Of a DNA stretch of 64,000 nt, positions 41,687-42,075 are shown in pieces (the stretch's first letter is position 1; each line of letters begins with the position of its first letter). The notes beneath the pieces were generated by a model. It saw only the letters and a program-made list of their open reading frames with translations. It had not been told where the DNA came from and ran no database searches. The position numbers and the translations under genes were made by a program. This stretch comes from Salaquimonas sp. (lineage in GTDB: Bacteria; Pseudomonadota; Alphaproteobacteria; Rhizobiales; Rhizobiaceae): assembly GCA_028289365.1 (NCBI GenBank), contig JANQQM010000033.1:1-64000 (forward strand), written 5' to 3'.

Positions 41687-41713
41687 AAAAAGAAAACCCG
41701 GCGCTAGGCCGGG
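41687..41713 (-). terminator. Rho-independent terminator of a small RNA
   Basis: CCCGGC (41697-41702) and GCCGGG (41708-41713) form a stem with 5-nt loop, followed on the minus strand by TTTTCTTTTT (41687-41696). It is the 3' end of the small RNA candidate and cannot serve the lipoprotein gene, which has its own terminator. Confidence 0.85.
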
Positions 41714-41818
41714 CATTTCCTTTTTGGAGGTCTGGAGATTTCAGGAGTGGTTCAAGTTCCTGTAGCATTAAGATGCCATATCCAGACAGTTCGGGATGTG
41801 CATTTTGACACACTTCGG
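41687..41818 (-). ncRNA. Candidate structured trans-acting small RNA (about 130 nt)
   Basis: The 3' end is a strong terminator (41687-41713). Inside, GTCTGGA/TCCAGAC (41730-41736 and 41781-41787) pair as a 7-bp stem enclosing two small hairpins (GCAT-CTTA-ATGC and CAGGA...TCCTG), a three-way junction. A single-stranded ACCTCC with anti-Shine-Dalgarno character follows. On the minus strand TTAACA (41848-41853) and TATTTA (41825-41830), 17 bp apart, form a promoter predicting a start near 41818. No ORF longer than 11 codons fits. Confidence 0.6.
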
Positions 41819-41840
41819 AAAATATAAATAAAAACAATGC

Positions 41841-42075
41841 CTTATTGTGTTAAATTTGTCATTGCCATCGCGATTTTCCGGTTCGGACAGCGTTTGGTTC
41901 CCAGATTGAATCGTGATGTGCACAATGGCACATCGGTGTCTACAGGATTCTGGGATAGTGCAAATGACATCGATGAGGCGCGGACCTTATACTTTGGACC
42001 GCTGATGTTAGGGGAAGACGGCTGGGGCTTCCCCAGCCTCACCTTTCGATTTCAGGGTCCAGGACAGCGCCAATT
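41841..42075. other. Intergenic region with only a hairpin
   Basis: Besides the small-RNA promoter elements and the hairpin at 42020-42038, I see no supportable gene in this stretch. The 83-codon plus-strand ORF beginning at 41837 has no ribosome site and no family-like sequence. Confidence 0.5.
42020..42038 (-). terminator. Terminator hairpin after the lipoprotein gene
   Basis: GGCTGGGG (42020-42027) and CCCCAGCC (42031-42038) form a perfect 8-bp stem with a 3-nt loop, about 37 bp downstream of the lipoprotein stop on the minus strand. The following sequence is CT-rich rather than a T-run, so termination may be partial. Confidence 0.55.

Follow-up and report, generated by a model that had tools for sequence, protein, structure and literature searches.

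A multicopy candidate small RNA with a CRP-type promoter and an exposed CCUCC segment in Salaquimonas and related Rhizobiaceae

The window analysed here, a 64,000-nt stretch of a Salaquimonas sp. contig, carries two divergently oriented CRP-type boxes, each followed by a candidate RNA (Table 1). An earlier note had read the minus-strand unit as an independent small RNA (sRNA) with its own promoter and terminator, which paralogues and orthologues now support, and had put the transcript at about 130 nt; counted from the conserved promoter to the terminator, the predicted length is nearer 76 nt.

Table 1. Features of the two divergent candidate transcription units in the window
Feature	Position	Strand	Remarks
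CRP-type activator box TGTGTCAAAATGCACA, TGTG-N8-CACA	41797..41812	-	kept in 11/12 genus copies and 5/5 copies of two other genera
-10 element CATCTT (TATATT-like in other copies)	41770..41775	-	exactly 21 nt from the box in all box-bearing copies
Predicted sRNA transcript, ~76 nt	41688..41763	-	12 copies by model R1; predicted ends, the start 7 nt after the -10 and the end in the T-run
5' hairpin CAGGA/UCCUG	41742..41762	-	covariation in the stem
Invariant loop UGAACCAC	41747..41754	-	identical in 12/12 genus copies
Single-stranded GACCUCC, anti-Shine-Dalgarno-like	41726..41732	-	CCUCC in 12/12 genus copies, unpaired in the consensus fold
Rho-independent terminator	41687..41714	-	invariant CCCGG/CCGGG stem and A-tract/T-tract extension
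TTAACA-17-TATTTA	41825..41853	-	present; judged not to be the sRNA promoter, no counterpart in other copies
Second CRP-type box TGTGCACAATGGCACA	41917..41932	+	divergent from the first, 21 nt before GATAGT (41954-41959); whole-genome promoter pattern
Candidate second RNA, divergently transcribed	41966..42040	+	similar stretch behind a similar box at G000:C224:26682

A search of the window's own genome (G000, a 229-contig assembly, 97% complete) with the region gave six matches besides itself; five of these are copies of the sRNA unit. A covariance model, R1, built from the first nine copies, matched six copies in this genome (E 1e-12 or better) and another 6 in four relatives (two each in G003 and G004, one each in G002 and G005), giving 12 for the genus at E 1e-10 or better. 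The genus is represented solely by incomplete metagenome-assembled genomes and these numbers are minima; in G001, which is 83% complete, the model found no copy. The six copies of G000 lie in differing gene contexts, two of the relatives carry theirs as tandem pairs, and in five genomes a copy or a pair occupies a syntenic site beside a ratA-like gene. Six copies scattered through one genome could also point to a dispersed MITE-like repeat that bears a promoter and a terminator and has no regulatory role. This we regard as improbable, since the copies are only ~70-80% identical and yet preserve motifs, spacing and pairing, since homology among them stops at the box and at the terminator, and since the ratA-like site is shared. 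Nor does the unit look like a leader or attenuator that acts in cis on the 92-aa ORF downstream of it (minus strand, about 41585-41310): this ORF does follow on the same strand after a gap of ~100 nt, with the terminator in between, but other copies precede unrelated genes or converge with the next gene, and no conserved alternative antiterminator fold is seen, making such a role very unlikely.

Across 101 genomes of the family, matches of R1 outside the genus were plain terminators by inspection. A pattern of the whole architecture, run on 397 genomes of the order drawn without the related genus members, found the own genome only; the exact pattern over genome contigs returned only four real records, all of them genus members already found, and in a plasmid collection the query matched only over short lengths, at its terminator end.

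Upstream of the RNA the copies share a CRP-type box and a -10 element, and the distance between them is exactly 21 nt in 16/16 box-bearing copies, including the rearranged copies of G009 and G085 described below. In G002 and G004 the box is a perfect CAP-type palindrome (TGTGACAAAAGTCACA). The only genus copy without a box, on contig C20 of G000, has an intact RNA part and occupies a locus common to relatives. The pattern box-21-TATNNT gave 28 matches in eight genomes versus 0 for a reversed control, and a looser promoter pattern 19 versus 6. At class II CRP-dependent promoters the site is centred at -41.5. With the start of transcription placed 7 nt downstream of the -10, the centre of the box falls near -41.5 and therefore at the class II position; with this assumed start, a TGTGA-N6-TCACA-type site centred at -41.5 is found in all 16. 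A CRP-family protein would bind TGTG-N8-CACA there and recruit RNA polymerase to a promoter that has no -35 element. The promoter proposed earlier, TTAACA (41853-41848) and TATTTA (41830-41825) separated by 17 bp, can be read on the minus strand as described, but the other copies do not share it, and we judge it not to be the promoter of the sRNA; the conserved one lies about 50 bp closer to the terminator.

Aligned, the 12 copies show about 6-12 nt between the -10 and a hairpin, a hairpin stem of 4-9 bp around the loop, and a terminator of the form AAAGAA-A-CCCGG..CCGGGUUUUCUUUU. Compensatory changes are present in the hairpin (41762-41742): four of five modelled hairpin pairs are altered on both sides (GC/AU/CG), and the covariation score is 0.231 versus 0.107 in shuffles, with 0/500 shuffles reaching 0.231. 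Sliding the hairpin partners abolished the pairing. Two further elements of the original description, the single-stranded ACCTCC (41731-41726) and the GC-rich terminator with its T-run (stem 41714-41696), are conserved in all 12 copies.

The three-way junction that had been proposed is not supported by conservation. Its 7-bp closing arms, GTCTGGA (41787-41781) and TCCAGAC (41736-41730), are there, and it is the minimum free energy (MFE) structure of the 141-nt minus strand, which folds better than 200/200 shuffles (z -4.25), much of the energy stemming from the terminator. The closing stem, however, is not conserved: in the window all 7 positions of the upstream arm are complementary to the bases preceding CCUCC, against 6/7 in the closest paralogue and 4-5/7 in the other copies (the G002 copy, whose locus ends too close upstream, was left out). 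As box and -10 are both conserved and this arm falls within the 21 nt that separate them, it should be untranscribed, and its complementarity is best read as a coincidence in promoter DNA. An RNA of ~130 nt starting from TTAACA/TATTTA and folding in this way, although its elements are present and its fold is optimal for the stretch, is thus highly improbable, with promoter and closing arm both unconserved. Comparison of paralogues here corrects a convincing single-sequence fold.

Much the same holds for a short mRNA coding a peptide from NTG-AAC-CAC. The codons NTG AAC CAC (A/C/TTG) occur in every genus copy, but the frames they open are unrelated in length and sequence (4 codons in the window copy), and the Shine-Dalgarno (SD)-like bases, 1-2 nt away from the start, are engaged in the pairing of the hairpin. 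We find this hard to credit, and the statement that no ORF fits holds across the copies, none of which shares a conserved ORF with the others.

Rearranged copies occur in two other genera. At the ratA-like locus of G009, a member of a different genus, the same box and spacer precede an RNA with two GACCUCC segments, and G085, from a third genus, has four copies of this arrangement, each with the box and the 21 nt. The G009 and G085 copies carry UGAACCAG in the loop of the terminator. Among 395 family genomes, matches to this terminator-loop variant other than those in G009 and G085 look like chance occurrences in coding sequence. In G009 and G085, UGAACCA is thus found in the terminator loop instead of the 5' hairpin, with the promoter and CCUCC left in place. 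Judged by sequence comparison, this pattern is motif shuffling inside an sRNA family, and because locus and promoter are shared, the rearranged and standard copies likely descend from one ancestor.

A loop that stays constant in sequence while changing hairpin is a clear functional clue, and one may ask whether it is the working part of a CRP-type-controlled RNA, titrating a protein or another RNA (by kissing pairing), with CCUCC secondary. No element is more constant than UGAACCA, which remains within a hairpin loop also where it has moved to the terminator; the fourth G085 copy retains it and reads CCACC instead of CCUCC; and the T-arm of the tRNA-His found here is complementary to the whole of UGAACCAC. 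This last match is expected by chance, since GGUUCA is common in tRNAs, and CCUCC is itself kept in 15/16 box-bearing copies and in the C20 copy. On balance we think it rather unlikely that titration by the loop is the main activity.

The reading that we favour, and consider probable, is that the window encodes a trans-acting sRNA, one of six dispersed paralogues, which is driven by a class II CRP-type promoter and blocks the ribosome-binding sites (RBSs) of its targets. Its starting points are the copies, the promoter architecture, the covariation and the terminator, and from these we infer transcription, a regulator, a role for Hfq, pairing and targets. The RNA would form a short hairpin that displays the invariant loop and keeps GACCUCC single-stranded, and its intrinsic terminator with a U-tail would suit Hfq (among the features expected of an Hfq-dependent trans-acting sRNA, the U-rich tail is the one that fits). 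An exposed CCUCC, a hairpin and a U-tailed terminator together make up the plan of RBS-blocking sRNAs, hence the proposed function: the loop and GACCUCC would most likely pair with GGAGG-type ribosome-binding sites and, at a high cyclic nucleotide signal, reduce translation of the mRNAs that carry them. UGAACCA, which never changes and lies in a loop in every copy, is likely to provide a second contact. An exploratory scan of 1204 RBSs (~30% of the genome) did not bring out a convincing set of targets, and mRNAs under the same promoter type showed no enrichment of predicted pairing with the sRNA. Transporter genes were among the top of the scan; we do not claim them as targets, since there was no control for their frequency.

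The best candidate for the regulator that would bind the box is a 227-aa CRP-family protein encoded on contig C225 of G000. The genome gave twelve cNMP-domain matches, four of them, by inspection, in proteins with a DNA-binding end, and among these four only the C225 protein carries R-E-x-x-x-R in the recognition helix, as in CAP. It also has the GE...RS cyclic-nucleotide cassette and the Pfam domains cNMP_binding and HTH_Crp_2; among solved structures, those of Mycobacterium CRP, Vfr and CAP are nearest to it.

This type of promoter is not confined to the sRNA. On the opposite strand of the window a structured stretch follows the second box, and its similarity to the stretch at G000:C224:26682, with a local score of 38 where the best of 1000 shuffles reached 24, suggests that it is perhaps a second sRNA. 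The hairpin at 42020-42038, formerly assigned to the neighbouring lipoprotein gene, falls inside this candidate. The pattern box-21-TATNNT also precedes genes for small secreted Gly/Tyr-rich proteins (loci L179, L169, L170, L195 and L197, in G000 contigs C135, C27 and C28, G001 and G003) and the gene of a YkuD-type enzyme. Some of these secreted proteins end in CYxKK...KRVRVC, and a relative adjoins the sRNA at the ratA-like locus. In G004 (C43) and G002 (C374) the pattern stands before a gene whose product, a membrane protein, contains a cNMP-binding domain and weakly resembles POPDC (Popeye) proteins. Transcripts of L169 and L197 and of the G003 and G004 sRNA copies would begin alike, with TTCATCGG, a hint that duplication of a promoter with its leader gave rise to the sRNAs; when leaders of sRNAs and co-regulated mRNAs were compared, the best p was 0.036 among ten, which is not significant in a shuffle test.

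Put together, these elements allow a tentative proposal, possible though doubtful as a whole: a cAMP-receptor regulon in one lineage of Rhizobiaceae, built on a single promoter cassette (box, 21 nt, -10, start TTCATCGG). This cassette would drive the small secreted Gly/Tyr-rich proteins of the envelope, the second divergent RNA of the window, and an sRNA family that duplicates and shuffles its motifs, with the UGAACCA loop passing from one hairpin to another. If true, this would be a cyclic-nucleotide envelope response with a built-in RNA arm.

How does the sRNA compare with known systems? Rfam assigned it to no family, either at the gathering threshold or at E up to 10, so that the suggested likeness to alphaproteobacterial anti-SD RNAs holds in plan and fails at the level of family. 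The best match was SorX (RF02784), at 24.0 bits against a gathering threshold of 46.6 (E 0.0005 on 171 bases). SorX resembles the sRNA in its length of about 75 nt, small hairpin, single-stranded ACCUCC and GC-rich terminator. SorX of Rhodobacter is, however, released by cleavage at the 3' end of RSP_0847 and responds to oxidative stress (PMC9438474), whereas the sRNA here has its own CRP-type promoter and several copies. We rejected SorX-style processing from the 3' UTR of an OmpR-type regulator gene in view of this promoter architecture and the varied neighbours. SmelA075/SmelA099 (RS0680a, ar14 kind) are likewise alphaproteobacterial sRNAs that occur in several copies and bear anti-SD motifs, with a presumed role in blocking RBSs (PMC3927594). 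RNAs of the ar14 kind, which gave no Rfam match on the sRNA, hold CCUCCUCCC in the loops of two to four hairpins, while the sRNA here has one hairpin with the loop UGAACCAC and its CCUCC outside.

On the side of the regulator, Clr of Sinorhizobium meliloti is a cAMP/cGMP receptor with the core site GTNNCNNNNGNNAC and site-to-start distances of -42 to -76 (PMC10127613). This core fits TGTGACAAAAGTCACA of G002 and G004 exactly and the window box with one mismatch. The structure 7pza, an S. meliloti cAMP receptor that we take to be Clr, does not come nearer to the C225 protein than CAP or Vfr do.

The closest functional parallel may be CyaR (RyeE) of enterobacteria, an sRNA that is CRP-activated, has an intrinsic terminator at its end and acts on ompX and other targets by pairing with their SD region (PMC11795201; PMC3927594). 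CRP-type control, the predicted SD pairing and the intrinsic terminator would be common to both. By sequence, the counterpart of CyaR's CRP-activated site near -40 is conserved in the sRNA copies in site and spacing; as for its seed on the SD of envelope-protein mRNAs, CCUCC is exposed and the targets scanned were unconvincing. The sRNA here differs in being multicopy and alphaproteobacterial, with the loop UGAACCAC and a separate CCUCC segment, and the CyaR (RF00112) models gave no match to it at E up to 10. Since it fails both covariance models, we place it in neither the CyaR nor the SorX family; on sequence grounds it makes up a new family, uncatalogued but familiar in kind, whose multiple copies would be tied to an alphaproteobacterial CRP-type regulon as CyaR is to CRP in enterobacteria.
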